Of a DNA stretch of 64,000 bases, positions 1 through 23,283 are shown piece after piece (within the stretch, counting starts at the first letter, position 1; each line of letters begins with the position of its first letter). Source of the stretch: Paralvinella palmiformis (lineage: Eukaryota; Annelida; Polychaeta; Terebellida; Alvinellidae). The position numbers and the translations under genes were made by a program. The stretch is from contig JAODUP010000134.1 of NCBI GenBank assembly GCA_025642065.1, forward strand, positions 165,001 to 229,000, written 5' to 3'. The notes beneath the pieces were generated by a model. It was not told the origin of the DNA. It made no database searches and worked only from the letters and a program-made list of their open reading frames with translations.

Positions 1-1150
1 AGATTTATATCTCAAGAATATATCAACAACCAGACTCATCATTTGTTTTATTTATTTTTTTACAGCAAATAATCATAATTGAAAATTAAAAATATAACCT
101 ATATTACTTTTATGTACAATTTAAAAACAGTATGGGGCATGGAAGCATTCAGAAATTTGGTTTGATACTTCTGTTTCATCTCGAGGAGATCAGTAGAGTG
201 CTTTGTAAATATTTGAATACCTAAATTAGTTCAGATTGAGTCTCAACCAATTAAGCATGCAATTTCTTATGAAGATATGCAACATTTTTCAATTTACCTT
301 TTAATACATTCAGTATCACAGTACCATCTTCAAAATACAGCATTTTTTGTTGATTCAGCATCATATATTTCAGTACAAATAACCACTGCTTTGTTAAAGC
401 ATTATATGCTTAATGACATGTTGGTGAAGGGATTGTTAAATAACTCCCCATTTTGTGCCCTGAAATGCACCTGAATATATTGGAATAATGGTGCTCTTGG
501 TTAATCCACAAAATATTGAATATGTTAGGTAGTGAGAGCTGGGTCAGTTCAACAGCTGTTTAGGTAATTTCAGGTCATTGCGTTAATGGAGATTTACCTG
601 TTGTTTATTTATGCCGTGTACCTGATCTCCTTATTCTATGGTCTTATTATAGAAGGTATGACATAATGGATAATTGCTGATATAATATTTTCCATAATAT
701 TTCTATCCACATCCCATTACCACAAAGTAAATATCTTTCAAATAGAACTCTGTCAATGGCAGTGATGTACCAATACTTTTGTTATGTTTATCCATTAAGC
801 CAAGACATTGGAATGTAAACATAAGTTGTATATGGGTTTCAAGTTGAATTTTTATTTAAGTGGTATCGGTAGACATATACACACTTTATTTTGTGATTTA
901 GCGCACTTTCCCTAATAAGTGCTCACTTGGCTTTCTGCATAATTACTCAGGATTTAAACATTTCATTGGCTATGCCAAGCAAGGTGGCTCTTTGGAAAAC
1001 TTCCACGGTCCTGCTTAACCAAAATTCTAATCAAGTTTAATCATCTGCCAGACATGGGCTCAATTCCGGAATTGGGATTCCTTATTTTAAAAAACCATTC
1101 TGAGTAGCTAATCCAAACAAGCCGGTTTTGAGAAGTGGTTGACCCCATAC

Positions 1151-1267
1151 AAGATGATGGACAACCTAAAACTGGCCACAACTTTAGATCCACGTTTAAA
1201 ACTGTACTGGTGCCAGAATGACGATGTCTGCGATATGCTGACTTCCCAGGTGGTGCAATTGTCGTAG
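1151..1267 (+). pseudogene. hAT/ZBED-like transposase fragment
   Basis: The + strand reads an open stretch containing NLKLATTLDPRLKLYW followed by QNDDVCDMLTSQVVQL and a stop. The motif (M/L)AT.LDPR.K is typical of the C-terminal half of hAT-family (ZBED-like) transposases. Only about 38 residues are recognisable and there are no flanking domains, so this is a relic at best. It could be a chance match. Confidence 0.3.
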
Positions 1268-3160
1268 GGTATGTAGAATTGACCCCATGTCTGTCATCTA
1301 CTGTTTGTAAAACTAGAACTGTGTTATCTGTCTATGCTACTTCAAGAGCCCTTATATGCCATGATTGACTGGCTGATATGGTCAACTATAGAAGATTATA
1401 GTCCACATCCAACAATTACTGTGACAGTTTGTGGCATGTTAGTCATGGAGAACACTATTTTACAGAGTGTGTGGTAACAGCCATATTTGAATAAAATTTG
1501 TATAGAGTACAATAAGAAATTATCTGTTTATTATTTTTTAAATCTGCTAAATTGGGTCCAACCATTTTCCAGTTATCAACATGCATATGATTATGAAAGA
1601 TTTTTTTAGAAGCCAACTCGTTTGATCCACATACTCTCAAGTTGAAATCCGGCTACTTTCATTTCCAATGTTGCTTCGTGCCATTGTAGGCCCTTGATGT
1701 CTGCCGATATCTGGCCCTTTCTTTTGTTGGATCCCCCCCCACCCCACTTTATTTCTTAACAAAACCATTGAATTCATTTTATGTTACTGACGGTAATTCC
1801 TGTGGACAATTTTCTAGCATCTACTGGTTATTAATATTAGGTGACCACCAATCTGAACCTGTCCCTTGCTGCAACCATATAGGCAGTCAGAGTCTGGTCA
1901 GAAGACAATGGCTTTTTGTTATTTATAAATAGGGATAAATGTTTAGTATTAGTAATGGTCATCACCTCGTAGTTATGGAAATTCCGTTTCTTTGACAGAT
2001 TTTATTTGAATACCAGGGATTGTTGTTCTGTAACATGTAGATGTGAAACTATGTGTAGTTACTGGAGATAGGTGTCTTTGTTTTGAAGTAATCATGTTCA
2101 TAGCGTATACTTTGCAGTCGGTTAAATATATATTTTATTGACCAGCTAATATGTAGAGAAGCAGTTTCGTATCAAACTGTATATTTATTGATTATATGGT
2201 AATGGTTGCCTTGTATTGAATAAATTATAATTATGGGGATTTGATAGGAATCAATCAAATATTTAGATTGACATTAGCCAAAACTTCAGCACATGCTTAA
2301 TATAAAGCAAGAACTACTGGACAATTTTTTTAATGCACTGTGAATGTCTTTAATATATTCTGGACAAAATATTGGAATGAATATACTAAGACATAACGTA
2401 ATTTTATTGTTAGCATCAGAATAAACAGCTTTTATATATATATAAAAATTATGGCTTCAACAGATTAATTCATGGATGGGGTTACTTCACTTTATAAGAG
2501 AGTGTGTGTCTATATATATATATGTAAATACACAGATTTCTAATTCAGGTATAATAATATTCTGTTTGAGTGCGCATGTAACAGAAACAGTCCCGGCTAG
2601 AATGCTAATATTCATGTGGCTATAACCAGTTCCTCCCAGTTTTGTTGTCTGGAGGTTTTAGCCTTAGGCTAACTTTGAATATAATGTTTTCATCGGCTTG
2701 AATAAGTATACCAATCAATAATAGTTACAGCAGCTAGACTACTTTGCTGTAACAGGCGGCTATTGTGTTTAGATATGTGTGGACGTGTAGGTATTTGATT
2801 CTTGTGGCACTCATTTACAGCTTATCATCAATAGTCAGATTTCTCATTAATTATGCAGCGAATAGTATATTTGCATAAATTGTTGACTGCTCTACGTTTA
2901 GGCGAAATTCGTAGTTGTTTTATGACATACACCGCATGGTACGCAGCTATGGTAACTATGCTGTTCTTTCCATTACCAAATATCGGAATAAAGGTGCTAT
3001 ATTTTTATTATGATCTAATTTATAATGTGTGAAGTAAACACAACAGACTGTTTGACTAGCTGTATCATTACTGCTATTTGTATCTTTTCTAAATATAGTC
3101 AAATAAGACTGCAATATGTGGCCTCGTTATAATGCAATCATTATGTGATCATCTTACTGA

Positions 3161-3303
3161 TGTTGGATCACAGATCACCTCCACCTGAGTTCGAATCTCT
3201 GCTTGGGCATATCTGAAGGGTGTTTCATCTTTCACTTTGCTCATTATGATTTAGCCTACCATGTGCACAAAAGTGGCCGTAATACATCAATCATCTTCTT
3301 CTT
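3161..3303 (+). mobile_element. tRNA-derived SINE, 5'-truncated copy (family S1)
   Basis: Shares with the other S1 copies the block from 'ttggatcacagatcac' through the B-box-like 'gttcgaatc', the 'gggcatatctgaagggtg' segment and the 3' end 'gtgcacaaaagtggccgt' plus a (ATC)-rich tail. The A-box head is missing, and about 20 bases within the body are deleted. Confidence 0.75.
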
Positions 3304-3361
3304 ACTGATGATTTCGTATAATACACCGTAGCTGTCATTAGAAGTTTCAAAGCCATTGTTA

Positions 3362-3541
3362 GGGCGCCTCCGTGGTCTAACAGTAACACGTTGGATCACA
3401 GATCACTACCACCCGTGTTCGAATCCTGGCATGGGCATATCTGAAAAGTGTTTCATCTTTGACTTCTCTTCATTACCTTTGGAGGTCGCTGGGCCCATTT
3501 AGCCTACCATTGCACAAAAGTGGCTTCAGTGATCATCTTCA
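3362..3541 (+). mobile_element. tRNA-derived SINE (family S1), near full length
   Basis: Begins with the tRNA-like head 'gggcgcctccgtggtctaac' (A-box region), followed by B-box 'gttcgaatcc', then the family body with 'cctttggaggtcgctgggcc' and the tail 'catttagcctacc ... gcacaaaagtgg'. It lies 60 bp after another copy in the same orientation. Confidence 0.85.
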
Positions 3542-4256
3542 AAAACTTCTAAACCCATGGTATTAATGGAATTGTAAAAATGGAAATAAAGCATCATTGA
3601 ATGGTGCATTGAACTTGGTTTGCAAACAACCATAAATTGCAGGGGTCGTAGATGTCTTTGATGCCACTGAACATGATAGGATTTTGGGGTCTTTGACCTC
3701 ACAGTATATCAGTATTTCATATACTCTGATTCCCCAGTTATTATGCAGGTAGCTTGTTTCATTGCAAAATCAATATTAATAATACAATGTCCTGATAACA
3801 AAATTCGTCAAAGCAGTTGGCATTAATATAATGCTACTTTGCTGTGTGAATTTGTTTTTATCTTTTATTTTGATCTACTCATGTTTCTACTATACGGTTC
3901 AATCTAATACGCAGTAATTGGCTACAGCTTTTGTATTTTAATTTGTTTCATTCGATGTTTTAAAAAAATAAACCACTAGTTCAGCGTTTTTGATAATTTC
4001 AACATGCCGGGTCAAAAAGAATTTTTCTGAAAATAACATCTTTTAACGGTTTTTAATTCTGTCTCGTCCTTTATTCAAGTTGGTCAGTTTCCCGCGATAT
4101 TGACTGATTTAATGACCCTGTCTTATACACAAGTATATACAGTCCATTTTGCCTAATACTAGCTGATGGTCAATTGAATTGTGTCAAAGTGTCTATATTT
4201 TGTGTGATATTTCATCTTCTACTATAAATCTAATATCTGGTATTTTTTCCTTTTAG

Positions 4257-4434
4257 GTGTTTATGAGTTTAGAACTGAAGAGTTAGCTGTTGTCTCTACT
4301 AGCTTTGCTGCATCAGTGTATGTACAGGCTTAGTAGCTGGCAACTTGTAACACATCCCAGGTACCATCTAGAGGAGTTCATCCAGTCAAGATTTACAGAA
4401 GAATTTAATTCGAACAGATAAAACAACATAATTG
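4257..4434 (+). other. SLC40A1: non-coding 5' exon of ferroportin (carries the IRE)
   Basis: Bounded by a strong polypyrimidine acceptor (tattttttccttttag at 4241-4256) and a donor (g|gtatgt at 4435). The 178-bp exon has no long ORF in any + frame and lies upstream of the exon with the ferroportin start codon. It contains a canonical iron-responsive element (4301-4330) and two short upstream ORFs: ATG at 4263, 7 codons, and ATG at 4320, about 31 codons. The second starts inside the IRE and ends before the donor. Exon status is inferred from splice signals and the IRE; a transcript would settle it. Confidence 0.65.
4301..4330 (+). promoter_or_regulatory. iron-responsive element (IRE), 5' UTR type
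   Basis: The hexaloop CAGUGU (4314-4319) is closed by a 5-bp upper stem: UGCAU (4309-4313) pairs with AUGUA (4320-4324), four Watson-Crick pairs and one G-U. An unpaired C (4308) sits immediately 5' of the upper stem, exactly where the IRE C bulge is required. The lower stem pairs 301-303 and 305-307 with 325-330, with one bulged U. All hallmark features of an IRP-binding IRE are therefore present, in the 5' leader of a ferroportin gene, where vertebrates also carry one. Expected effect: IRP binding blocks translation when iron is low. Confidence 0.8.
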
Positions 4435-6449
4435 GTATGTATTTGTGTAAGAGTTTGCTGCAAATTAAAAAAAGAGTGAAGTTTTAAATGATTTGATTTG
4501 AATGTGTTATCAGTAGCACTCAAACCGCATTTATATGGGCCTGGAAATAAGTAGAAAATGGTGCATTATGATGAGAAGCAATCCTATCATAATGCACTTC
4601 GTTATGCTTGATTCAAAATGGGATTTACAGGGTTCGCACGCATCCTGGAATTTACTTGATTTTAATATCATTCAGTCCTTGTTTTTCAATCCATCCCATT
4701 AAAATGGAATTCACCCTAACCATTTTGAAAATTGTGCCTTATCAAGCTGGGAGCTTAGATCAAACAAGTAGCATGCATAGCTGTCAAAACAAGTGATTAT
4801 ACAGCTCAGGTATTCCAAACCTGATGTCGCTCTTTCCCTGATTTTTTTCTGAATGACACTATGTATGGAAAATAGTTTACTACCTCCATGATTGATATCA
4901 CTGCATGTTACAGGATACTATACGAATGAGCATTTTTGAAAACTATTCATGTGAAGGACCCACATAAGAATGCGCACCCACACACAAACTGTGCTGAGTT
5001 ATCTTGTGCTATAGTTATAGCCATGCAGGAGTTTACCTCATTCCCATGGGAATAATGGGGATAATAAGATTTGTGTTGTACATACATTCTGGTAGATCAC
5101 TGATGTAAAATGAGATCCAAGAGATTCAGGTAGCTCTGCACATACTTATTGTCTTATATTCACATATAAAAATGGCATCGGATATCTGTTCCATTATTCA
5201 AATGTTAAAATACCCCTGAAAATATTGATTGGATCCTGGAAAGGTAGATATTTTGATGAACAAATTTCCTGGAAAACCATACATGTGAAAGCCTGTATTT
5301 AACTTGTGCTGGTTAGGATGCTTCACAGGGAAAAATCTGACATGATGTTGCAACATCAGTCATTTTTCCTTACCCTGAATGTTTATATTGTGTTTTGAGA
5401 GCTAAATCTATGGTCCCAGCTTATGATGTGTGATCTTTGATGCTGATAGTGATAAGTAACTTCACGAAAACAAGTTTATACAGTGACCTGATGTGTTGTA
5501 GTTTACTTTAAGGTCAGTGACCCAGTTTCCTATTGACATGCATTGACATTTATTTGTGTGTTTTGTTTTCATTAATAGCATTCAGGATCGTGATGCTGGT
5601 TGAACGGAATCATAGTGTTTGATGATTATGGTGTAAATCCTATAAATAATAATCATTATTATTGTTTCATATAAATGAATCCATAATACTTTGTTTATTG
5701 GCTGTATCAATATCATCGTGATCCTTATGTGATGTTTCAGTGAGTATGTGTTTCTTGAATAGTGTTAGCAAAAGTATTTTACATCTTACATGGTGATTCC
5801 TTTCTTATTCGTTTGCCTTTAAACGACATTTATTTATTTACTGAATATAGAACCAATATATTGTAAAGTCGTCACTTATCACCTTAAATTATCAGATATC
5901 TTTTATGAACTGCACAAAATCTGATCATGACCTGAAATTATCTTTGTGTTTGTCTCTTCTATTGTTATTTCTGTAATCATTATTATCTACTTAATGCTGT
6001 TTGTAAGAGGCATATCTGGCCATACTGTAAGGACAACACTGACTAAATCTTTGTTTTTATGATCAGTGCTGGCCTGTCCGAATTTGGTCAACTTTTGCAT
6101 AAGTCGATGAGGTGAGATTTTCACGAGACGCCCAAAAAGCACTGTGTATTAACGGCTAGTGTCTTTTGATCCTAGGATGTATACATACAGAGCCTTTATA
6201 TCTAGGTTCCATGCGAATATTATCATACTAATACCAGTATCACGTTTACTTTTGAACTTTAGCGGGGAGCTATCAGCATGATGTACATGTATCAGAAGCA
6301 CCAAGTGATTACCAGTTTCTTGTTGAAAGATCTGGCCTCACGGAATACAATGTTGATTTTTTTTGGTGAACTTGTTGTGCCGTGAGCATCAGATGGTCGT
6401 CTTATATTTAGGTTGTTCAGCTAACCCTGTCACCTTTATCTTAACACAG

Positions 6450-6570
6450 ATCAAGCTGCGTCAGAATACCGCTCAATTATTGTTGGTGAAAAGGACACTG
6501 CGATTCTGGAAATAAACGAGACTATAAAACATGGCACAGAAAAAGGATAAGAACTGCTTTGGGCATTCAG
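6450..6570 (+). CDS. SLC40A1: ferroportin exon with start codon
   Basis: Acceptor ttaacacag at 6441-6449, donor cag|gtgagt after 6570. The first 81 bases are 5' UTR. ATG at 6531 opens MAQKKDKNCFGHSG, a hydrophilic cytoplasmic N-terminus, and an in-frame TAA sits two codons upstream. The exon ends in phase 1. Confidence 0.85.
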
Positions 6571-9500
6571 GTGAGTGTTTAATATTGGGAATATCATCCC
6601 CTAAAAGCTATATTTGGTATTTTTGGGAATTGCTGGTTTATCGTAAGGCATTGAGTGACCATCTGTGTGCTGTCTGTTGTATCATTAGGAAAGTAGGTGT
6701 CCATCCCTGCCAGTTAACTTGTAGACTTTGTTCGGATTATTATAGTGTTTGCATTTATTTTTGTTGAAAAAGCTAAGATAATTTTATTAATATCAGCCTA
6801 GTAATTTTCCTGTCACATGGTGCTTCTGTTAATTTACAACTTTATTATATAATTTTGTGTTCTTAATATAATTAGTTCATCACCTGCAGACAGCATGCTA
6901 ATCACGATGAAAACCATACAATGATTTTGACCCAAAATGGTTAATGGCTACTTCATGATTAAAAACCACAATAATACAAGTGTCAAGTGGAGAGCATAAT
7001 TGTTATCACGTAAATAATATCAAAATATTAACCAGATAGACTTGGCCAATATCTGAGTGTATGCTGTATTTTTACAGGTACACATGAACCTGTTGACCTC
7101 GGCATCGAGTTAGCTTGTTCTGTGACAATTGTATAGACTTGTTGCTATCTTAAAAGTACACTTGATGCAGCTTGTACATTGACAGGCACAAGAGTATGTT
7201 ACTTGTGTCTCTTTTCTGTGACTGCTTTCGTGCTTGGTTTTATACTGGCAGTGACAGTCATACATGCACACAGACAGTCAATTGGTTAATTAAAATTTCT
7301 CAAGCATCATACACATTTCATCCAGATCACATAAAGGCAGTTTCCATGTTATTCAAAATATTGTCTGTATGTTTGTGAAAGACAAGTAAAACGATTTCTA
7401 TACAGGTAAAACATCAGCTACTGCTGATCTCGAGTTAAACTGAAAGCCAACAATAGATTTCGACAAAGGTTACTCTAAATTTTGTTGCTGATGATTTAAA
7501 ATTAAAATAAGAATGTTTTGATAAGAAATATTAAATACTACCTTTTTTATATTGTTGTTTTGCACTGTTTCACTTCTCTGCACAGATTGCTAGTGTTGCC
7601 TTGTTCAATGGGATACTCGCCCATAGAAAACCATATGTAATTAAGCAAAGCAATCAGTGACTCATAACATAGCAAGAATACTGATATGATGTGCATTGTT
7701 GGTTCATAACGTGCACACTTCTTTTGAAACTGTCCAAAACTGCTTTAATATGTTGCCATTTACACCATTTGAAGTTTCAATGACCAAAACATAATAAAAC
7801 CACATATCTAAATGCAAGCAGTGCTTGTGTATAAATGAAATGAAAATATATTAATGTTGTTTGAATTTGTAATGTTCTTTTACTTGCAGAATCTTGTATG
7901 GAATGGATAAAAGGTCCATCGTGTGCACTCTATTCTAATTATGTACTCTCAGCTTGGGTTAGTGTCCATTTTATATTGAATTGCTGTAATAAGCTTATGA
8001 AATTTGTTTTAAAATTTATATACCAGTACTAAAAGAGTTGTCTTTAACTGATGATATTTTAGACTAACAATTGTGTAATTATACAAGTCCAGTATCAACA
8101 AATGTAAAAATTTAATCACAGTCTTTGTCATTATTATGGTTCAGGTTAAATGTGTAATACAGTGTTGTGTGGATATTCTTTACAGGGAGATTGGATGTGG
8201 CAGTTTGCTGCCGGATTATATCTGGTGTATTTAGCCGATGGGATGTTAAGATTGGCTGCCATCTTCGGTTTTGCTGGAGGCACGTTGATGCTGCTTCTTG
8301 GCGGAATTATTGGAGATTGGGTTGACAGGAATGGAAGGATGAAGGGTAAAATATTAATATCCGGCACAAAGAATTTGCTTTCATAATTATGGCCTTTTAT
8401 CTGTAAAGAACATCATCCGAAAACAAGTTTTAATATTTGTAGAGATATTTGCAAATGCACAATTGGCTGTGTGTCTGTTCACTTACACGTGCAATAATGT
8501 CAGATAATTCAATTTAGCTGTATTCATTTATCACGTGGCATCTTATTTTCAGTGGTGATTGTGTCGTTATTTATCCAGAACATATCCGTGGCACTCTGTG
8601 CTACCAGCGTCTGCATGGTTCTTGTCTATCATGATCATATCTATGATGGCTCACATGGTGCCATACGTGTTCTTGTTGAGGGTGTCGTCATTGGTCTGGC
8701 TCTGATTGCTTTCCTCGCCAGTATGGCTTATAAGATTGCCATTGAAAAGGATTGGATTGTCGTTGTATCTGGCGATGACAAGTTCAAACTTACCAGTAAG
8801 TAGAATATGTACTAATGTGGCCGTGTTCTGATCATTGCACGTGGATTTAGTGATTTTATCATTACAGTTTATATTTACTTGATGTGTGGACATCCATGTG
8901 AAATAATTTCAAGCGGATACATCGGAGTATTAATAATTTAATACCTTTGGAAACATGAATAATATGTTATTTCAAAGAGGATAGGTAAATGAAAATATTG
9001 TAATTGATATTCAAAACAGAAGCACACTATTTCTGTTTATGATACTAGTGTTCTGTCATTGTTTTCACATCATCTTAACTGAACTTTTGATCACTATTTA
9101 TCATATATATTAAACCTTAATTAGCCAGAAAACAATAACACCATGTCCTACAAGTCACAGTCCAACTCACTGTGGTGCTTCAGGTTGTAGAGAGAGACTT
9201 GGGCGTCACATTTTTGTTACCTAAACATTTATCTTCCATAACAGACTTGAATGCCGTAACCAGAGCCATCGACTTGTCATGTAAGATTCTAGCACCGACC
9301 GTGGCGGGTCTGATTATGAGTTACTCTCACGTTATTGCTGCCATCTTCATAGCTGTATGGAATGTCGTATCCGTCATCTGTGAGTATGCCCTGCTGAGAC
9401 GAGTCTACAAACTTGTACCAAAGTTAGCCATTAAAGGAGCGACCACAGGTGGTAAGTACTATATTGATCAATTGTATATTCCATTAAGATGGTGAGGCTT

Positions 9501-12500
9501 TGATGTTTTAGAAAATTTCCGTTGGCCAAAGCATGAATATATTACAAGATTTTATCCCATTACAACACACTTAAATTTCTACTATTTATTTTATTATGAC
9601 GATTCTGTAGCCTTTTCTCTTATCTTTGGCCAAATTCTTTTGTTTTGGTTAAATGTTAATATTTATTTTGCACAGAATCCAAGGAGTATGAAATGAAACC
9701 TTTGAGCTGTAGTAATGGGGATGTGAAGGAGCCACTGAAAAAAATTGAAAATGGGAAATTATCTGATGAGATGGAAGGTGATGAAGTGGCCTCCAATGGT
9801 AACATCATCAGTGAAGTAAAACAGCCACTACAAGGGAAAGATGCTGAAGTGTCGGAAAAGTACACAGACGAAGATTGCGATGTGGAGAGTGGACAGACAG
9901 AGGAGAAAACGAGGAATCGATGTTGGCAGTTAGCCATGGATCCGTTTGTGATTCTAGCCACAGGATGGAGGACATATGTTAGTCAGAAGGTTGTACTGTC
10001 CGGGCTGGCTTTGGCTTTACTCTATATGACGGTACTAGGATTTGATTATGTAACAACTGGTAAGTAATATTTGAATGTCATAGTGGGGGGGGGGTCTAGT
10101 GGTAGCCTGTCGGCTCACAGATCACTACCACCCATGTTCGAATCTTGGCGTGGGCATATCTGAAGGTGGCTTCATCTTTGACTTCGCTTCATTGCCTTTG
10201 GAGGTCGCTCGGCCCATTTAGCCTGCCATGTGCTCAAACGTTGCCATAAAACATCAGTCGTCAATATTTGAATGTCATAGTGTGTGGTGTTTTAAAAACA
10301 AATTACGTATCATACATGACTGATAAACAGCCAGCCTTGAATAGGATGCCAACATATAGATATAAACAAGTACACATCTACATTTTTACTAGCAGTCCTA
10401 ATGTATCGTACAGCAATGTTTATGTTATCTCAGGTCACATAATCATTTCTTTGTTTGGTATTTTCTGATTAAACGTTGTCAAATATTTACCTGAAAATCA
10501 GTTTCTCAGGTATTCCCAGCCCAGTCAGCATTACATCAGTACATTAAACTGATCTGTTCCCAGTACTATCTCCATCTTATGTTATATAGTAATTTTATAT
10601 CCTATCCTAATCATATGTCAATCAATATAATGGGTACATTGTAAAATACGGTATGGAATATACGAATAGGTAGCTGAAGAGGTGAATCATTCCCAAAGTG
10701 CAATATAACTACAGATCCACTAGGTTTTGACAGAAGAACTTTAATCATGCTCACTAAAACCTATAACAGAGCACACTTCCATATCATCGGTTAACTTATG
10801 AAATGTAAATACCTATCTTTCACACAGTTACACTTTGTTAAAATGATTATCTGATCTAGCTGAAAGTTTATTCCACTGTATTTTGGTAAAACTAGAAGAG
10901 TACGCCACTTACTACACATGTAGCCTACTTGATATCCCTTTGTCAAAGGGACTTGTATGTTTCGAAAAACTTATGTGACAATGCTCAAACAAATGTTGGG
11001 TAAAATTACCTACAGATATGTTTTTGCAAGTAGGGCCAGAAAAGGTTTATGCTATTCAAATCCATCTGTCTGATAATTCATAAGGTCACAGAAAGAAAAC
11101 GTAACGAAACTGAGAAAATGGCTGACACAAGTTTATGTGTACATCTAATCCATTTTACTTACTTTGAAATAATTATATAATGGTTAAATGAATTTGTTTA
11201 GTATGTTATGTTGAGTAACCCACGTTTTACTACAAATATTCAAATAAAAAGTGGAAGTTCATGTTTGATGTTATATTTACCCACTTTAGTAATTTACGTT
11301 TTGATTGGATATGTGTCAATTTTTGGGAGATTGTCATGCATCCTTGCTGTTCTGAAAAATTCTGTTGATATCTATATTTTAAGTATATAACAGAGAAAGC
11401 ACTGGGTTAGTTGTTATGATATATTTATGTTGTGATTTGTATTATTCTGAGTGCATATAACATTTTGAAGATAAATCAAAGGCTTTGAGATTAAGAGCTC
11501 TTATAAGGTCAAAGAGTAGACAAGTTTAAAAATACATGCCTAGGTGATCAATCATTCGTGTTCAAACTGAGTTGCATAGCTTGATAAACATATCTTATTG
11601 TTGCTTATAAAGAACTTGTGTGGTTCACAAAAATATTGTATTTGATTCTGAAAACATTTTAATTTTCAGGCTATATCTATGCCAATGGCGTCAAGGAGTC
11701 TTATGTTGGTGTTTCAATGGCATTAGCTGGTGTCACTGGTATCATAGGGACCGTGGTCTTCTCACATCTGAATAAAAGGTTCGGATTGGAGCGTACAGGT
11801 TTGATCGCATTCTCTTCAGAAATCATCTGCCTGACGCTGACCGTGGCATCCATCTGGGCTCCGGGAACAGTCTTTGATCCAACTTATTCACACAAACCAA
11901 ACTGCAGTGTGACCACTGTTAATACGTCTAATGTTGCTGCTAAGGCTGCTGACGTCAACAACTTGTCTTACACAATTCCTGGTACAGATGAAGTGCGAGT
12001 TAAGCGTGATCTGAACTTGATGTTAGCACATGGCCCCCAAAGCCAACACTTCATAGAAGGCCATAGTTTTTCTGAGCAGTGGCGCCTTGGAAAAGATTTC
12101 CCCCAGGTCAGGTCTTTGGTGCAGGTGTGTTACCCTGACCATGACAGACCATTGAGCAGAAGGCGTCGTGACTTGGACACCAGCAACTTGCTAGATAGAA
12201 ACAAAGATGAATTGGCTAGCAACGGACAGGAACAACCACAGGCACTGGCTGTACATTCACTGGACCCTAAAACTGAGAGCGAAGGCGACTGTCCAACGTC
12301 AACGGCAACCGTGTCAATTATATTGTTTCTCATTGGCATCATTACATCCAGAATAGGTAAGTAGGTCGAATATATACTGAGTGACTGGCTTATTTCAGCA
12401 AAGAAATGCTTTCGTAATCTGATGTCAGTGTTAGAGGTCAGCTGTTACAAAAAATTAGTTTTGGACTTAACCCACAGTCAGTAAATTTGTAATGTATGAC

Positions 12501-13027
12501 AATGAATTGAGTGCTTTGTTGTGAGTGCTAGCCATAACCGGCATAACTCCGAACATGTATTTAATATGATTTGCTAATTATTATGCATGTTGTACTGGCG
12601 TCCCCTGGACCCTATGTCTAAGAAACCAATCACTCCTTGGGCTTCTTTTATTTTTACTTGTGTAAAGTCAGCATTTATATGTCTTCTTCCAGGACTGTGG
12701 ATGGCCGATCTCGTCGTCACCCAGCTGTTTCAAGAGAACGTCCCCGAGCTAGAACGTGGAATTGTCAATGGCGTGCAGAACTCTTTGAACATGCTGATGG
12801 ACATGATAAAAAATGCTTTAGTTATTGCCCTACCAAGAGTTGAAACTTTTGGCATACTTATTATACTGTCCTTTATCTTCATCGTAAGCGCAGGGGGTCT
12901 GTTTGTTGGTCATGTGGTGAAAAATGACAAATCCGTGTTTCTGTGCGGAGATAAGCTGAAGTCTAAACCAGCCGTTATTCAAGAGGTTGAGGTTGTTATT
13001 GATGATAATAAGCTACCAGTAGTTTAG
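6450..13027 (+). CDS. SLC40A1: ferroportin (SLC40A1-type iron exporter), 8 coding exons
   Basis: Coding exons: 6531-6570, 7890-7957, 8186-8345, 8553-8795, 9245-9451, 9676-10059, 11670-12356, 12693-13027. All junctions are GT-AG and in phase (2124 bp, 707 residues; human about 571). The start ATG at 6531 has an in-frame TAA at 6525. The product is a 12-TM MFS-like plasma-membrane exporter of Fe2+. Diagnostic motifs are WGDWMW in TM1, GGIIGDWVDRN, EKDWIVVVSGDD, KILAPT, YMTVLGFD, RTGLI, and ERGIVNGVQNS in the C-terminal half. Extra length comes from a Glu/Asp-rich cytoplasmic loop (exon 6) and a long extracellular loop (exon 7). By alignment to human from memory: Asp39, Gln99, Asn212 and Glu219 are kept (D38, Q98, N210, E217), while His43, Cys326 and His507 are Q42, Y364 and K636. 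Probably regulated by the IRE in the upstream exon. Confidence 0.95.
7890..7957 (+). CDS. SLC40A1: ferroportin exon: N-terminal end of TM1
   Basis: 68-bp exon between acceptor cttgcag and donor gg|gttagt. It encodes SCMEWIKGPSCALYSNYVLSAW, aligning with the human segment that enters TM1 (LYLGHSLSTW). Confidence 0.85.
8186..8345 (+). CDS. SLC40A1: ferroportin exon: TM1-TM2
   Basis: Encodes GDWMWQF through GGIIGDWVDRNGRMK. It contains Asp38 (human Asp39) and Gln42 where human has the metal ligand His43. The GDWVD motif of the TM2-TM3 loop is intact. Confidence 0.95.
8553..8795 (+). CDS. SLC40A1: ferroportin exon: TM3-TM4
   Basis: 81 residues with SLFIQNISV (Gln98, human Gln99) and EKDWIVVVSGDDKFKLT, the conserved cytoplasmic DWIVVV segment following TM4. 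Acceptor attttcag, donor a|gtaagt. Confidence 0.95.
9245..9451 (+). CDS. SLC40A1: ferroportin exon: TM5-TM6
   Basis: Starts NLNAVTRAIDLSCKILAPT (human NMNATIRRIDQLTNILAPM) and ends in the cytoplasmic segment KLAIKGATTG. Contains WN..SVICE, i.e. Asn210 and Glu217 matching human Asn212 and Glu219. The upstream open frame 9172-9244 is intron: the acceptor (ataacag) is at 9244. Confidence 0.92.
9676..10059 (+). CDS. SLC40A1: ferroportin exon: acidic cytoplasmic loop and TM7
   Basis: About 100 residues of a Glu/Asp/Lys-rich loop, poorly conserved in the family, precede LATGWRTYVSQKVVLSG and TM7 with YMTVLGFDYVTTG. Tyr364 occupies the position of human Cys326, the hepcidin-binding cysteine. The donor is followed within 7 bp by the target-site duplication of a SINE. 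Confidence 0.95.
10066..10282 (+). mobile_element. S1 SINE with perfect 20-bp target-site duplication
   Basis: The body (about 10086-10262) has the family B-box 'gttcgaatc', 'gggcatatctgaaggtgg' and 'cctttggaggtcgctcggcc'. It is flanked by the identical 20-mer 'aatatttgaatgtcatagtg' at 10066-10085 and 10263-10282. The insertion lies only 6 bp after the exon-6 donor of ferroportin. A perfect duplication indicates a recent LINE-assisted insertion. Confidence 0.93.
11670..12356 (+). CDS. SLC40A1: ferroportin exon: TM8-TM9, long extracellular loop, start of TM10
   Basis: Encodes TM8 and TM9 (VSMALAGVTGIIGTVVFSHL, RTGLIAFSSEIICLTLTVAS), then an extracellular loop of roughly 130 residues, then TM10 (TVSIILFLIGIITSRIG). 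The loop is about twice the human length. It contains two basic sites, RVKR (11996-12007) and RRRR (12158-12169), each followed by Asp-Leu. Confidence 0.95.
12693..13027 (+). CDS. SLC40A1: ferroportin last coding exon: TM11-TM12 and C-terminus
   Basis: Encodes GLWMADLVVTQLFQENVPEL, ERGIVNGVQNSLNML, TM12 and a cytoplasmic tail ending DDNKLPVV, stop TAG at 13025-13027. Lys636 occupies the position of the human metal ligand His507. Confidence 0.93.
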
Positions 13028-14400
13028 TAGATATTCTCAATTCCATCTGGAAAGATTCGTTTTTCAACACATTTAGGATGTTGACCAGTAATTACTTGCA
13101 ATGAATAGAAATCTCAGTCAAAGGCGAACATTTAATCAACAGATGTTATATCTAAATTCTTGGAATAAGTTGTGTTTTTTTTTTGTTAGCCAACTCTCTT
13201 AGATACATTTGACTACATATCTATCACATAAAATATAATTATTCTAATACAGTGTATGAATGGTTGTTATGTTGATTTTTGTATTATCAACACTGGAGTT
13301 TAGCTACATTTGAGCAGTAGATCTGTTTTTTCAGTGTACCTATTTCCTTTTGTACTAGAAAATCTGAGATTTGAGTTTGCTGTTATAGGATGAGCCACTT
13401 TAAATTTTTGTATGGTTCTTGGAACTATGCCAATTCTTGTATGCATCGTGTTTGCTAGAAAACATCCTAACTATGTGCCATTTAAATCTATTTAATTAAT
13501 CCTATTAGAACGAATGAAACTATGCACTGGTTAACCCTGTCATACAACCATCGTATACAGAGATGTTCAAAGTTTGTTTGTGTGGCTTTTAATTGGCTGT
13601 TGTGTAATATTTGTATGGTTAAAACACCACCAGTAGCACTGTGATTAACAATACACCATGCTTATCCATTTTAACTCTGAGTGTTGGCCGTTGTAATACA
13701 AGTTTGTTTCAACATATTTGTCGCATGATCAGCTATTATTGACACGACACAGTCGGAAATGATGCAAAATTTAATCATGACTGGAATTCTCTCTACCTGT
13801 TATCAATCCATGCCAATTTTGCTAGAAAATCTTTTTGATCTATCCATCACATTGTTGATGAATGGATGCTGTTTACGACGAATACTGAACATTTGCTGGA
13901 CAATTTCTAACCAAATCCAGAAAGATGAGATTGTTGTTGGTTGCTATTTATTTTAGATTTGTTTTTGGTGATGATTGCATAAATACATTTCAGGTAATTT
14001 GATGTAGATATTTCAGTATTCTTCTGGAAAGAATTCTACTATGAAGTGCTTAGTAGTATTTTGTAAATATAAAATTGACATTCGGATTATGTGCGCGCGT
14101 CAGTTCAGATGGTTGTTATGGATATATATCTTGATTTGTATATTTGTGTACGTGTTCATAATATGATAAGTTGCTTTTTAGAGTGATGTCATAATCAGAT
14201 GCGTTTGTCGTTAAGCAGATTATGTGTATACGAGTGCACAAGTGTAATTATGCAGTCATGCAGATGGTCACACACGCGATTGTTTACCAGCTGAACATAC
14301 ATCGTTAGTCTGTTCACGTGTCATTGGTGTCACCTCTCTAACCCTTATCGATGTTGGATTAATCCGGCGCATTTCATTAATACAATAAAATTTATTAATA
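13028..14400 (+). other. SLC40A1: 3' UTR of ferroportin (inferred extent)
   Basis: AT-rich, no coding signal on either strand. The first canonical AATAAA downstream of the stop on the + strand that I noted is at 14384-14389, implying a 3' UTR of about 1.37 kb. Two CAGTGT hexamers (13250, 13332) lack IRE stems. Confidence 0.35.
14384..14389 (+). terminator. candidate polyadenylation signal AATAAA of ferroportin
   Basis: AATAAA within 'tacaataaaatttatt', about 1.36 kb after the stop codon. Assigned by position only. Confidence 0.3.
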
Positions 14401-14840
14401 CCCGCTTGTATGAAGACTAAAATAATGGCAAAGCATGGAAGGTCTTCTGGCCAGAATTGGTTCTGTTCATCGACTACAGGAGCACTGGTGTGAGAATACT
14501 AAAACTTTGTTGGTGTGAAGCTCTACTTGGGGTGGAGCAAACCAGCCAAGTCATGTTGAAAACAACAACAACAACAACTAGACAATAATATCCACATGCA
14601 ATACATTTGTATATGTGGTAGCCTTTGACCTTTCTTTTTTTCCTTCTTTTTCTATATAGTTGTATAAAATGCTAAGAATCACTGTGTACTTTCAAACATT
14701 AAGTACTTGATCATAAACAAACTATTAATGTAGTCTAGTGGGCGGGGGGGTGGGGTGGAAATTTGGTACAAATACGCGCAATATTTTCGAATATAGGTCA
14801 GTTTAATCTAATTATGGCTTAATTGTCATCGCGTCGCGGC

Positions 14841-15026
14841 GGGCGCCTCCTTGGTCTAGCGGTAGCGTGTTGGACCACAGATCACTAACCATCCGTGTTC
14901 GAATAGCGGCGTGGGCATATCTGAAGGTTGTTTCGTCTTTCACTTCGTTTCATTACCTTTGGAGGTCGCTCGGCCCATTTAGCCTTCCTTGTGCACAAAA
15001 GTGGCCGTAAAACATCAATCATCATC
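14841..15026 (+). mobile_element. S1 SINE, full-length copy
   Basis: tRNA-like head 'gggcgcctccttggtctagc', B-box 'gttcgaata', family body and a (ATC)n tail. A short direct repeat 'gtcgcggc' flanks it on both sides, consistent with a target-site duplication. Confidence 0.88.
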
Positions 15027-15094
15027 ATCGTCGCGGCCTTCTACAAAACGTGCTGGTATCAACTTTGAACTCCTTGGCCAAAGTCTCGCAGCTC

Positions 15095-15160
15095 TTGAAG
15101 CGTAGATGGTAGCGTGCCGTATTGCAGAGCTTCATGTCGGGGTTCAAATCGGAGATGATC
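15095..15160 (+). other. tRNA-like fragment
   Basis: 'agatggtagcgtg' resembles an A box and 'ggggttcaaatc' a B box, 32 bp further on. No complete cloverleaf or acceptor stem could be folded by eye. It is probably the head of another SINE or a tRNA pseudogene. It sits between two S1 copies. Confidence 0.3.
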
Positions 15161-15223
15161 TTTATATTTGAATGTTACCGGATGGAGCGCCGAAGCAGAG
15201 GAGGATTTCCTATCAGCAGTGAC

Positions 15224-15406
15224 GGGGCGCCTCCGTCGTGTAGTTGGTAGCGCGTTGGACCACATATATCACTTTAGTTCGAATCTCGGCGTGGGCATAT
15301 CTGAACGGTGTTTCATCTTTGACTTCGCTGCATTACATTTGGAGGTCGCTCGGCCCATTTAGTCTACCATGTGCACAAACGTAGCCGTAAAACATCAATC
15401 ATCATC
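15224..15406 (+). mobile_element. S1 SINE, full-length copy with target-site duplication
   Basis: Head 'ggggcgcctccgtcgtgtag', body and tail 'aacatcaatcatcatc'. Flanked by 'cctatcagcagtgac' (15209-15223) and 'cctactagcagtgac' (15406-15420), a 15-bp duplication with two mismatches. Confidence 0.9.
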
Positions 15407-16147
15407 CTACTAGCAGTGACAACAATTAATGGCTTATGGATTTTGCATGAGATCACAGCTTGAAGCGGAGTATTTCCTACCAGCAGCGACCAAAAAAGGC
15501 TTAAAGATTTTGGATCATATCACACGTGTGCAGACAACAACTTTGGAATGCACAATACAAATATTCTGACCCCATAAACAAAACAAAAAGTTTTTTTCGC
15601 GACTCGGATAAAACTTTCAATTCCAGTTCAGTAATACGAGGTAATAATAATGGCCGAAATGACAGTTCTTTTGTGTGGCTGTCTACCTCAAATGAGGGAG
15701 ACTCACATGGTCTGTAATTTACTGTTTCACCACGGGGACTGATTCTAATTTGTTTTTAGAATTTCCGATAGATGGCATATTCGTCGAGAAGAACCTTACC
15801 TTACATTGATCGCTTATATATATATATATATATATGTTAAGCTGAAATCGGTTAAAGAAACCTTTTGAATTGCAGGTTTCTATAATAATTTGCATCGCAT
15901 ACATCTAAATGTTTGGATTGAACACGGTAGAAGGTTGGGAAAAAGTAGGCTGGTCAAATGGCTGCATAAATATCGGGCCGAATAACGAGAACGTAATCCG
16001 AGTTTATTCCTCGTACATAAATATAATTTTTAGATAAGCAGACTGTCCGCCCATCACAGATGGTTTTCTCGCTGGCATGATTCTCGCTCGCTCTCTGTAT
16101 AAAAGTGATGGCGTGGTAGGCTACAAATCTAGATATTAGTTTCGTTC

Positions 16148-16207
16148 GAATAGAAGGGTGTTTTATCTCGCACCGGGTTCGCATAAAAGTGGCCCTAAAA
16201 CAGCAAC
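16148..16207 (+). mobile_element. S1 SINE relic (internally deleted)
   Basis: Only 'gaagggtgtttt' and 'cgcataaaagtggccctaaaacagcaac' match the 3' half of the S1 family; the middle is missing. Confidence 0.35.
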
Positions 16208-17567
16208 GTTTAAACCTTTTCTGTAAATATATCGCACATTCATGAAAAAAAAACAGTTTATTCAAGGGAGTCTTCAGATAAAATGTACAAATGGTTAATA
16301 TGAAGTCTTAACTAATTTAAATGGTACGTTTAAGAAAAGGAATATTGTACGCACCAATATACTCCTCCCGAAAAATTCATCCCAACAACGTTACAGTACA
16401 AAACGCTATCTCCACGTCAACGTCATATATAGAAACTCCACGACAAAATGTACTACTTGCACCAGATCCATGATGAAATCCATAATTATCTGGAATGAAC
16501 TTTGTCCTTAATCCTAGAACCTTAGAATAACCTTCGAACTAGGACGTGATTATATATATATATATATATGCATGGCTACTATATCCAGGTAGTATATCAT
16601 TTAGTAAATTCTAAAAGTGAATGAGAAGCGATTTTCCAGCAGTAAGTGGTCTTAATCTATCTTCCGTGTGTTTAACGTTTGTCTGATATTCACAATCGGT
16701 TGATAGTTCCAGCTATTACAACATTAAATGGTGTCCTTCCTTGAATTCACCTTTTAAATACCATATGGGCTTATATCAATATATATATATGGACTGTTCC
16801 GATGCTTTGTTAAAATCCCTTGACACCTGTTACCTTTCATTTATTAACAGCCTTCTAGTCTGTAGCGAACGAGGCCTCATTTTATATTTGGAAAACTGAC
16901 GGACTACAAATAGAAGTGTCACGATGAACACTCGACGACTCACTAGAGTGGTCAGCTGACTACTAGACTTTCTAGTTGATTGGCAAATCCTACACTTAAT
17001 TGTATAGCTAAATGACTGGTCAAGTGAACTGGACACCATGCATATGCACAACTCCACACTTTTGTAAAACGACAGTACTCTGTGTGTACCCGATATATCA
17101 TCACATTTATATAATATATTGCTGACCTGAGTGGCAGTACCATACCCAGATAGCATGTCGCTGGCAGTCCGGCGACGTCAGACAGTGGTCCGACGTTGGC
17201 TCAACGTCGGAAAACCAATCAGTTGATCCAACGGTGTCCCAAACGTGACATGAGCGGACAGGCCAATTAAGTATACATACATACAAACATGTTCGGCTTT
17301 TAAAAGGTTTATTTTTCATTTAAAATATTATGTCAGAATCAAATTTTGAAGCTAGTATCGCATCTCTCGGTTGCTGCGGCACGGTCTTGTTATGAAAATA
17401 TATGATTTTTGAACCAGAAAGGTTAAACATTTCCAATACAATAGTAATTTCACCGACCGATCTAGTTTTGATCTTCTCATTTTTATCAGTGTCGATTTGC
17501 TTAAAGATCTTATTGAAATTTGAACCAAATTAATAGTAGTGGTTATTTAAATTTTGTGCACTTAGTA

Positions 17568-17704
17568 GACTAAATGGCCCGAGCGATCTCCAAAGGTAAT
17601 GAAGCGAAGTCAAAGATGAAACACCCTTCAGATATGCCCACACCGTGATTCGAAAATGGGTGGCAGTGATCTGTGGTCCAACACGCTACCGCTAGACCAC
17701 GGAG

Positions 17705-17708
<4 letters not shown>
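17568..17708 (-). mobile_element. S1 SINE, minus-strand copy
   Basis: Read on the minus strand: head 'gcgcctccgtggtctagcgg', B-box region, 'gggcatatctgaagggtgtt', ending 'gggccatttag'. The 5' end abuts a 16-unit (AT)n tract at 17709-17740. Confidence 0.88.
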
Positions 17709-17743
<35 letters not shown>

Positions 17744-17979
17744 TTTATTCAAATGTCATTTACTATCATTTCACGATGTGAGATACTTCAAGCGATGGAC
17801 TATATATGTGTCTGAAAAACAACTTTGAACGGGTTTTAAAAATGTAGAAAGGGTGAACTATATATTTTCGCTGTAAGTATCACCCCTCTCTATTAAACAC
17901 ATATATGAGACTGCGTCCGTTGACATATTAATTGTTAGCATATTCGGGTTAAAACACAGACACACACATATATATATAT

Positions 17980-19098
17980 CGTCTAAAGTAATTTGCAAAC
18001 GTTTAAGACCACACAGGATTTTAATCCTGTGACCTTATTTATTGTTTTATTGCAACATCCAATTTGAGTCATAGAATAGTAAGCCTAGTAAGAACTTGTT
18101 GGTTATTTGTCTACTGCTGTCGGTGTTGTTGGGTGTGTTTTCAGCCATCTCTACATCCACACATTGGGCAAAATCTTCTTTGACAGAGGTTCGAAGGACA
18201 CAAACAATTACTCTACACGTAAAAGGATACACAGGAAGGGACATTCCTACTAAATTGCGTTGCTCCAAGACAGCGGTGCACAATGATTTCGTCTACAAGG
18301 AAAGGTCTGGTCGTCCACGGAAGATTACGCCCAGGGAAGATGAGACAGATATTGGAAACTCGCTGAATAGAAGAAAACGTCGTTTTCAGACGAATGCACC
18401 GTGCAGCAATTTGTACCTCACCACATGAACATTAGACGGCCATTGGGTAAGCGTTTTGGCAAGAAATATGCTGTAACAGCAATGAAATACCCGCCGAGCC
18501 AAATTATTTAGAGTGCAATGTCTTGCCGTGGCGCTGCTGGCCTGTATTTTATTCCCCCTAACACCATTATGAATGGACCCAAGTACGTGAAACTGCCCAA
18601 AGAGAAGCTGAATCTAAATATGCACGTCCATGGCTGCACGATTTTGATGTAAGATGCGCTCCTTGTCACCAATCAAAGGTAGTCACTGACTTCCTGAAGA
18701 AAACCAAGATCTCTGTTCTGGAATGGCCCGGAAATCGACCAGATATCAATCCAATCGAGAATCTGTGGACTATTATGAAGGATAGGGTGGCTTACAAGCA
18801 ACCATCAAACGCTGAATACCTGAGTCAAGCAATCAAGGATGTTTGGGACACTGAAATTATCCAGGAGTACTGGGAATCTCCGGTATCCAGAATGCCGTTT
18901 CGCATCCAAGTAGTCATTGACAGAAAAGGAGGAAACACTAAATACTAAAAGGCAGTGACAATGACACTTTTAGATCTCTTAAAATTTCTAATTGTGTTGT
19001 ATTTTGCTTCTGGTGAAATAAACTTCGTACGAAGGCCAAAAGACACAGTTTTGTCAATTTTATTTTAATAATTATGTCTGGTCTTAAACTTTTGCAAA

Positions 19099-19102
<4 letters not shown>
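17980..19102 (+). mobile_element. Tc1/mariner-like DNA transposon, degenerate
   Basis: Terminal inverted repeats: 'atttgcaaacgtttaagacc' at 17991 and, on the opposite strand, 'atttgcaaaagtttaagacc' at the right end (19080-19099). Both ends lie in (TA)n, fitting the TA target preference of the superfamily. The interior holds a broken transposase reading frame (18096-18948). The left end carries about 11 extra bases relative to the right. Confidence 0.85.
18096..18948 (+). pseudogene. Tc1-like transposase, frameshifted
   Basis: Fragments in different frames follow Tc1 order. First comes a DNA-binding/linker part with ERSGRPRKITPRED (about 18300). Next is the DDE-domain start, IIWSAMSCRGAAGLYFIPP (about 18500). 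The C-terminal part is APCHQSKVVTDFLKK, then EWPGNRPDINPIENLW, ending at TAA 18946-18948. The catalytic NPIENLW block is intact, but frame breaks and an internal gap make the gene inactive. Confidence 0.85.
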
Positions 19103-19141
<39 letters not shown>

Positions 19142-19574
19142 CGGTATATTATTTGGTGACTTTCCCCAGACACGGACAGCAGTTTAGCATATAATAGTTA
19201 TTGTTAATAAATAGTCAAATATGCACAAAATCATATAAAATTCCTCAGCCCCATTTCGCCCCCACATGTACCTGTGTGCTGAATGGTCTATGTACTAAGC
19301 CCGTAGTCAATTTTAGATAATCATTTTCAATTTGAATCTGAATTATGAAATGATTCCTCCACAAAGATGGGTTCGTTTCAACTCCTGGCTAAACAACAGT
19401 CAACAGTCAACAGTTAGGTTATAAAAGTACAGTCTTTTATCATCTTATTCCAAGAACAGTTATCTGTTAAAATATGGTGTGTGTCACATGTCCAGTAATA
19501 AATGCAAAACATTAATCAAGATGTCCATAAGCATGACATCTAACAAAATCTCACCAATATATATTAAAGACTTC

Positions 19575-20141
19575 CCTGATCAACATTAAGGGCTTCAATA
19601 ACTGTTGTCACTCTTTTGTTTCCACTTGACCTACTGTGGAGAGATTTTGTATCAGACCTAGTCAGTACCTTCATTCGCTTGTGATCAAGAACAATTTCAT
19701 CCATATTCCAAAGTTTGGCGCCAAATTTATCATAAATATTGTGCTAAGCACAACATTTAACCAAGCTCAGACGAATTGCTTCGAGGTATGACTTCACATT
19801 TTCACGTTTCAGAATTCCACACCACCACTTATTTCATGGCTTTCCACCTTTGAAATTCCTACCATACTTTTTTAGCATACTGTCCAGGGTATATAAAAAA
19901 TTGTTTCTTGTCGAACCGTACACCCATGTCTATCCGGTTACATGCATGGTGAACCAATTTTCTCTCTTGTTGGTAAGTAAACCTTGACATCCTCCCCGGA
20001 TTTGCATTAAGTGTTACCTTCTCATTGGGATGGGTTTGAAGTGTTGTCCGTGGTACATTACATGTGGTTTGGACTGATCGCTCGGACATCTAACCCGAGT
20101 TGACTGTCTGAACTGCTGCAAGCACGTCAGTCTCATTTCAA
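19575..20141 (-). pseudogene. pogo/Tigger-type transposase, degenerate (N-terminal and DDE start)
   Basis: The minus strand begins (about 20140) with TDVLAAVQTVNSG, a stop, then SERSVQTTCNVPRTTLQTH, which matches the psq-type helix-turn-helix of pogo transposases. RFTYQQERKLVHHACN follows (CENP-B-like second HTH). Several stops later comes IYDKFGAKLWNMDEIVLDHK and SLHSRSSGNKRVTTVIEALN, which corresponds to the first catalytic Asp region (W/YN.DE) of the pogo DDE domain. The frame is broken repeatedly and the C-terminal half is absent. Confidence 0.7.
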
Positions 20142-22350: not shown

Positions 22351-23283
22351 ATGCATCGACGAACTTCCAACGAGATACGCGATGCGAGGAAGCTTCAACG
22401 TCGCCTGGATCAAACAAACGGCAAACAGATTCTCTTTAGCGTAGCCATTGACTCACAGAACAAATTAAGAAACTGGGGAACATCGACATCTTTTCTTACG
22501 AACGAAAACCACCACGCCGTCAGTCATAGACAGCTGTTCGTCTGGAATATCGTAGATTGCGGGGATGCTTCAACCGATGCTGGGATGTTGTCAATTGACA
22601 CACCCATCAGTATATTCTCGCGTCACATAGACAAGGATCCCGCTTATCCTTTCAACGAAACCGAACCGCGCGTCTACGAACTGACCGGGAACTGGGGCAG
22701 TTTTTCCATCCCCGTCGTCGTCTCTTGCGTCGTTTTCTTCGGCACGACGGTGTTTTATGCCCTTTATCCCGTCGACGAATACGTGGTCTTTCCCTTAATC
22801 GTCTTCCTGTGGTCGTCGTACGCCGCCTGGTGTCGGAAGGAGAAGCGGCTCTACATTCTCGACTGCATACGGAAGGTGTACAGGTTCTATTTGGGAAACG
22901 ATCTGATCTACCAGGGCCAGTACCACAACGTCTACATCAGGCTGGAAGCGCGCAGTCCGAGAACGGGTCGAACCTGTTACCGACTCGTACTGGATGGATA
23001 TCGGCTGGAAACACGCCACCTGACGTCCTACGGCGACAACTACAAATGGCTTTATAAGATGGGCACCAAGTTAGCCTGCACCCTGGAGGTGAACTTCTTC
23101 GATTACCAAAACAAGGCCAGGACTCACGAGGTGCCGCACAGACGTCGCGGTGCCGCCGATTACCAAACCGGTGTCGCCGCCGACGGGGACAACGGCGATA
23201 GGTCCGAGCCAGAAAAGGTGGAATGGGGGGTGGGACGGTACACCCCTATTAGAGAACGAAACACGGTGATGAAGTATGTGTGA
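22351..23283 (+). CDS. TMEM249: TMEM249-like protein (CatSper auxiliary subunit), single exon
   Basis: 310-codon ORF, ATG 22351, TGA 23281-23283, markedly more GC-rich than its surroundings. Residues about 1-105 are hydrophilic. Two transmembrane segments follow: SIPVVVSCVVFFGTTVFYAL (about 117-136) and YVVFPLIVFLWSSYAAW (about 143-160). Then comes a soluble domain with YRFYLGNDLIYQGQYHNVYI, CYRLVLDGYRLE and NFFDYQNKARTHEV, and a charged tail. The two-helix hairpin followed by an 'IYQG..HNVYIRL ... NFFDY' domain is what I recall of TMEM249. TMEM249 is a component of the sperm-flagellar CatSper calcium-channel complex. The true N-terminus is uncertain: the first 60 or so residues show no family similarity I recognise, and a 5' exon may exist. 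The lack of introns is unusual beside two intron-rich neighbours. The assignment is by recollection of the family and is not secure. Confidence 0.7.
   Translation: MHRRTSNEIRDARKLQRRLDQTNGKQILFSVAIDSQNKLRNWGTSTSFLTNENHHAVSHRQLFVWNIVDCGDASTDAGMLSIDTPISIFSRHIDKDPAYPFNETEPRVYELTGNWGSFSIPVVVSCVVFFGTTVFYALYPVDEYVVFPLIVFLWSSYAAWCRKEKRLYILDCIRKVYRFYLGNDLIYQGQYHNVYIRLEARSPRTGRTCYRLVLDGYRLETRHLTSYGDNYKWLYKMGTKLACTLEVNFFDYQNKARTHEVPHRRRGAADYQTGVAADGDNGDRSEPEKVEWGVGRYTPIRERNTVMKYV

Follow-up and report, generated by a model that had tools for sequence, protein, structure and literature searches.

Introduction

Does an invertebrate ferroportin gene carry an iron-responsive element (IRE) in its 5′ leader? 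The question is raised by a hairpin upstream of a ferroportin gene in a 64,000-nucleotide stretch of DNA, analysed as a whole and called the window below, which a first-pass annotation had read as a canonical IRE. In vertebrates, a single sensor protein jointly governs the storage and the export of iron by binding hairpins in the two messages, and Piccinelli and Samuelsson are said to have found the ferroportin IRE in 2007 in vertebrates only. Ferroportin is counted among the ten classic IRE mRNAs (PMC8466369, in excerpt). According to the excerpt of PMC7034838, an IRE is apparently missing from FPN1 mRNA in two sponges, so that a ferroportin IRE would not be general in invertebrates. Among the matches listed from the CC-licensed PMC literature, as far as their excerpts go, none described an invertebrate ferroportin IRE, and the word "ferroportin" is absent from the main text of PMC7850002, on chiton IREs, as excerpted, a source whose supplement could list one.

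Results

An IRE-like hairpin lies upstream of a ferroportin gene on the same strand

The gene downstream of the hairpin, on the same strand, had been called ferroportin, and this identification was borne out by a full FPN1 domain (Pfam PF06963, 435 bits, 3e-130, positions 4-430 of 430). PDB entry 6vyh matched at E 7.8e-106, and the four best solved relatives are all named solute carrier family 40. The gene model in Table 1 is one of four in-frame variants, which use 9448 or 9451 and 7957/8186 or 7961/8190, and its start codon has A at -3 and G at +4.

Table 1. Features of the ferroportin locus, in window coordinates
Feature	Position	Strand	Basis or remark
TATA-box-like TATAAAT	4223..4229	+	28-34 bases before 4257; possible promoter, inferred
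Putative 5′ leader exon	4257..4434	+	splice ranks, TATA; first exon, or internal exon after acceptor 4256
Upstream ORF, 7 codons, before hairpin	4263..4286	+	ORF reading
Candidate IRE	4296-4336	+	read from sequence, IRE-rule scan, Rfam, folding
Upstream ORF, 33 codons	4320..4421	+	ATG = first three bases of 3′ upper-stem strand
Start-codon exon	6450..6570	+	start codon at 6531, AAAACATGG; 5′ edge uncertain (6449 poor, 6066 better)
Ferroportin (SLC40A1) coding region, 707 aa, eight exons	6531..13027	+	gene model
Ferroportin coding exons	6531-6570, 7890-7957, 8186-8345, 8553-8795, 9245-9451, 9676-10059, 11670-12356, 12693-13027	+	

At the candidate site, the plus strand reads CUACUAGCUUUG-C-UGCAU-CAGUGU-AUGUA-CAGGCUUAGUAG. 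The hexaloop CAGUGU (4314-4319) agrees with the IRE consensus CAGUGN, where N is not G, and by sequence position the C at 4308, five bases 5′ of the loop, is the C8 of an IRE. The upper stem UGCAU/AUGUA (4309-4313 with 4320-4324) is paired at five of five positions, by four Watson-Crick pairs and one G-U. Eleven of the 12 positions of the lower stem (4296-4307 with 4325-4336) are paired, three of them as G-U, and one is a C-C mismatch; the rule scan described below counted 9 of the 10 positions nearest the core as paired. As we read it, the site also shows the features that a figure legend of PMC7034838 (in excerpt) lists for SIREs: the loop is canonical, the upper stem has one G-U and no mismatch, and position 25 is C instead of G. 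The hexaloop, the unpaired C and both stems are thus where the first-pass annotation had placed them, while the upper stem, described there as perfect, contains one G-U wobble. A hairpin with all described IRE elements is confirmed at this site; the exon around it is putative, an interpretation and not an observation.

The hairpin is rare by chance and matches the Rfam IRE model below its gathering score

Both strands of the 64-kb window were scanned with a rule requiring a C, then five base pairs of which no more than one could be a wobble, and the loop CAG[UA]G[ACU], and the candidate site was the sole match. In 300 dinucleotide-preserving shuffles of the 64 kb, this basic rule gave 0.137 matches per shuffle, falling to 0.01 when at least four of the five adjoining lower pairs were also required; with at least nine of ten lower pairs, as at the real site, there were 0 matches in the 300 shuffles. 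For the 2274 bases between 4257 and the start codon, counting the sense strand only, the shuffle rates scale to about 0.0024 expected matches, or about 0.0002 with the lower stem. These expectations argue against a hairpin that arose by chance in non-transcribed or intronic DNA, with the ferroportin mRNA starting downstream, for example near 6067-6530, and lacking the IRE-like sequence; we consider this alternative improbable.

In the covariance-model search that the annotation had proposed, Rfam IRE_I (RF00037) matched the site from end to end (1-36 of 36) at 25.4 bits, with E 0.0023 for 501 bases and 4227 families, which by arithmetic becomes about 7e-5 when rescaled to one family in 64 kb. 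Over positions 1-14000 its E of 0.065, which rescales to the same figure, was the lowest among the 4227 families, with four matches listed, and one unrelated family there had 25.7 bits but E 1.4. However, 25.4 bits does not reach the IRE_I gathering score of 34, which governs inclusion in the family and does not describe structure, and this shortfall favours a chance hairpin. It is also the reason why the default Rfam scan of the window, which applies gathering cut-offs, reported no match, and why we term the site a candidate IRE.

The canonical fold is not the predicted minimum

For the 41-mer, the canonical fold was predicted at -11.4 kcal/mol and the minimum-energy fold at -12.4 kcal/mol, making the canonical fold about 1 kcal/mol costlier. 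In the minimum-energy structure the register is shifted and C8 is base-paired, and the probability of the canonical core in the predicted ensemble is 0.26. By the same measure, the canonical fold had a probability of 0.95 for human ferritin H, 0.65 for the Hyriopsis cumingii ferritin IRE (computed from a 27-base piece) and 0.007 for the Eisenia andrei ferritin IRE, so the window hairpin is likelier to take this fold than that of Eisenia and less likely than that of Hyriopsis. The excerpt of PMC4184891 gives 0.9% for the canonical form of the Eisenia IRE, and reports that in vitro this IRE is gel-shifted by earthworm IRP and also, though less strongly, by mammalian liver extract. Since the Eisenia IRE, whose canonical form is rarer still, shifts with IRP, the shifted register is no strong objection to an IRE at our site. 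Judging from Eisenia, which fails this test yet binds IRP, having the canonical fold as the minimum is in practice no defining IRE feature.

Folding energies around the site were unremarkable: z was -0.90 for 42 nt, -1.35 for 56 nt and -1.19 for 81 nt, and +0.61 when the leader's first 144 nt were folded. Such ordinary energies of the unconstrained fold are a further point for a chance hairpin.

The hairpin resembles two lophotrochozoan ferritin IREs

In the 27-mer CUUUGCUGCAUCAGUGUAUGUACAGGC, 22 of 27 bases agree with the ferritin IRE of Hyriopsis cumingii (sequence from PMC3144951, in excerpt) and 21 of 27 with that of Eisenia andrei (sequence from PMC4184891, in excerpt). Random IREs obeying the rules reached 22/27 to Hyriopsis in 19 of 200000 cases and 21/27 to Eisenia in 52 of 200000, in a comparison that assumes equal base use and covers these two published IREs. 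Two of the five mismatches to the mussel IRE fall on partner bases of the upper stem, where A4312-U4321 (27-mer positions 10 and 19) stands in place of the mussel G-C, both sides being altered and the pairing kept. Both ferritin IREs share with the window hairpin the C8 and the placement of the G-U in the upper stem, and the Eisenia IRE also shares the loop CAGUGU; they sit on ferritin, whereas the window hairpin sits on ferroportin. A review states that position 8 is G rather than C in brachiopods, annelids and arthropods (PMC8466369, in excerpt); unlike that statement, the window hairpin has C there, as the Eisenia sequence does. The resemblance exceeds what the IRE rules demand, which weighs against a chance hairpin and favours a genuine IRP target with the form that IREs take in the same broad animal group.

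The same closeness to ferritin IREs would also be expected of a stray first exon from a duplicated or broken ferritin gene, without a role in ferroportin, which we regard as highly improbable. At E values up to 1, no Pfam family matched the three sense frames of 4201-6530 or the 10 ORFs scanned out of the 15 before 6530 that reach 60 aa, and the exon at 4257-4434 has no second copy within the window, where the best other match was 18 bases long (E 0.37). With the Pfam scans upstream of 6530 empty, a ferritin remnant is unsupported, and the absence of a second copy in the window likewise rules against a repeat-borne exon. As far as the sequences tell, likeness to ferritin IREs does not separate descent from ferritin from convergence.

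Splice and promoter signals suggest a leader exon around the hairpin

Splice sites were ranked over positions 100-20000 of the plus strand (pseudocount 4) with a matrix built from the seven coding introns of the gene; these introns score well by construction because the matrix derives from them. Donor 4435 ranked 18 of 1293 GTs and acceptor 4256 ranked 12 of 998 AGs, and both scores fall among those of the coding introns. Because TATAAAT lies about 30 bases upstream, 4257 may be a transcription-start region and not an acceptor, and this box would fit a first exon starting at 4257 as well as the splice acceptor fits. Either way, the site is flanked by an exon-like donor and by an acceptor or TATA signal, which is a point against a chance hairpin. 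Acceptor 6449, in turn, ranked 414 of 998 AGs (375 at a stronger and 482 at a smaller pseudocount), so the proposed junction from 4435 to 6450 is doubtful, and this weakness favours the chance alternative. Acceptor 6066 ranked 8 of 998 and donor 6112 ranked 19 of 1293. The 45 bases between these two good sites (6067-6111, plus strand) are a possible extra leader exon; alternatively, the start-codon exon may actually begin at 6067.

The leader is more than 2 kb long and contains these further splice signals, and TATA[AT]A[AGT] has four matches in 3001-6450 of the plus strand, at 5165, 5641 and 5670 besides 4223. Both observations would suit an isoform switch, in which transcripts could begin with any of several first exons, that with the IRE among them, and only part of the message would be iron-repressed. 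Vertebrate FPN1A/FPN1B provide a precedent for such a ferroportin switch. We consider it somewhat unlikely here; it is compatible with, not opposed to, the reading of the hairpin as a 5′ IRE, and the odds of the two overlap. A ferritin isoform without an IRE is generated through an alternative first exon in a chiton (PMC7850002, in excerpt), which also points to this possibility.

Two upstream ATGs, one of them inside the hairpin, would burden translation of the leader. The ATG at 4320 has a weak context, with T at -3 and T at +4. Since the 33-codon frame opens inside the hairpin, an IRP bound there and a ribosome starting at this ATG would be mutually exclusive.

The ferroportin protein groups with annelids

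We obtained 75 ferroportin protein matches, drawn from the 7996 candidates sharing most words; the closest, P0001, is 76% identical and lies on a 4120-base contig. In a large tree of the window protein and 35 of the 75 matches, an 18-row branch holding the window (99/94) takes in all six annelid-named rows, namely Owenia, Lamellibrachia, two Capitella, Helobdella and Dimorphilus, the last flagged as a long, unsure row. The eight mollusc-named rows (five Haliotis, Patella, Lottia and Crassostrea) all fall in another branch (100/99). A 16-row tree with 15 of the 75 matches placed the window with Capitella, Helobdella and Lamellibrachia (100/99), and with Owenia added (88/88). Forcing the window and P0001 together with four mollusc rows was rejected in this tree (p-AU 3.5e-6), the mollusc grouping having been picked after the large tree was seen.

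The first-pass annotation had spoken of a mollusc ferroportin. The annelid branch and the p-AU value lead us to reject a mollusc origin for this one gene. Because the protein groups with annelids and the mollusc grouping is rejected, the source animal is most likely an annelid as judged from one gene; hidden paralogy is possible, since the placement rests on that single gene. In the first membrane helix, the 18-row annelid branch has GDWMW in 10 rows (window included), GDRMW in 4 and neither pattern in 4, and the mollusc branch has GDRMW in 9 of 9 rows. GDWMW versus GDRMW is possibly a lineage marker at a conserved spot.

Other features of the window

A sperm cation-channel subunit, TMEM249, lies at 22576-23283 on the plus strand (PF15158, 7.5e-35), for which a single database relative was found. 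Many exon-like ORFs, judged by eye, occupy about 24500-63000 on the minus strand; two of the five ORFs scanned there (29784-30047 and 32377-32841) gave weak ADK matches under the Pfam cut-off, and the other three gave none. The region is a putative multi-domain adenylate kinase gene, which we take to be AK9-like. A DDE_3 transposase piece at 18562-18948 on the plus strand (6.8e-09) is presumably a mariner-like relic. Two similar plus-strand stretches at about 3360-3540 and about 10090-10260, each with a tRNA-like GTTCGAATC box recognized by eye, are probably SINE copies.

Discussion

We conclude that the hairpin is probably a 5′ IRE through which an IRP would repress ferroportin translation at low iron. 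What the analysis shows directly is a motif that is rare by chance and resembles two lophotrochozoan ferritin IREs, a ferroportin gene downstream of it on its own strand, and exon-like signals around it; these observations partly support the interpretation as an IRE controlling ferroportin. Inclusion in the mRNA, distance from the cap, IRP binding and repression are what we infer.

At low iron, cytosolic aconitase/IRP1, which we assume to be present, would lose its iron-sulphur cluster, and the cluster-free protein would grip the CAGUGU loop and C8. Bound IRP1 would keep the small ribosomal subunit from loading close to the cap; less exporter would then be made, and cells would retain iron. 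When iron is plentiful, IRP1 would turn into aconitase and let go of the RNA, and ferroportin would be translated. If transcription starts near 4252-4257, the hairpin would lie about 39-44 nt from the cap, and such a cap-proximal distance is the usual place for IRP repression.

The vertebrate FPN1/SLC40A1 IRE likewise precedes the start codon of an iron exporter, the orthologue of the one described here, and follows the same loop, C8 and stem rules, and repression at low iron would be common to both. It belongs to a different phylum, however, and the two are likened at the level of these rules, the exon structure and the IRP control in the window being putative. Tentatively, and with slightly less than even confidence, we suggest that annelids captured or re-evolved a ferritin-type IRE in the leader of ferroportin, convergently with vertebrates, so that iron export would have been wired to this control at least twice; in a variant of this proposal, the element would be ancestral to bilaterians and lost elsewhere.

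If an annelid uses IRP on iron export, such control is not a vertebrate invention, and if this is true, an ancient versus a convergent origin becomes testable across annelid transcriptomes. Many annelids have large extracellular haemoglobins, and the control of iron export in these animals would bear on their blood physiology.
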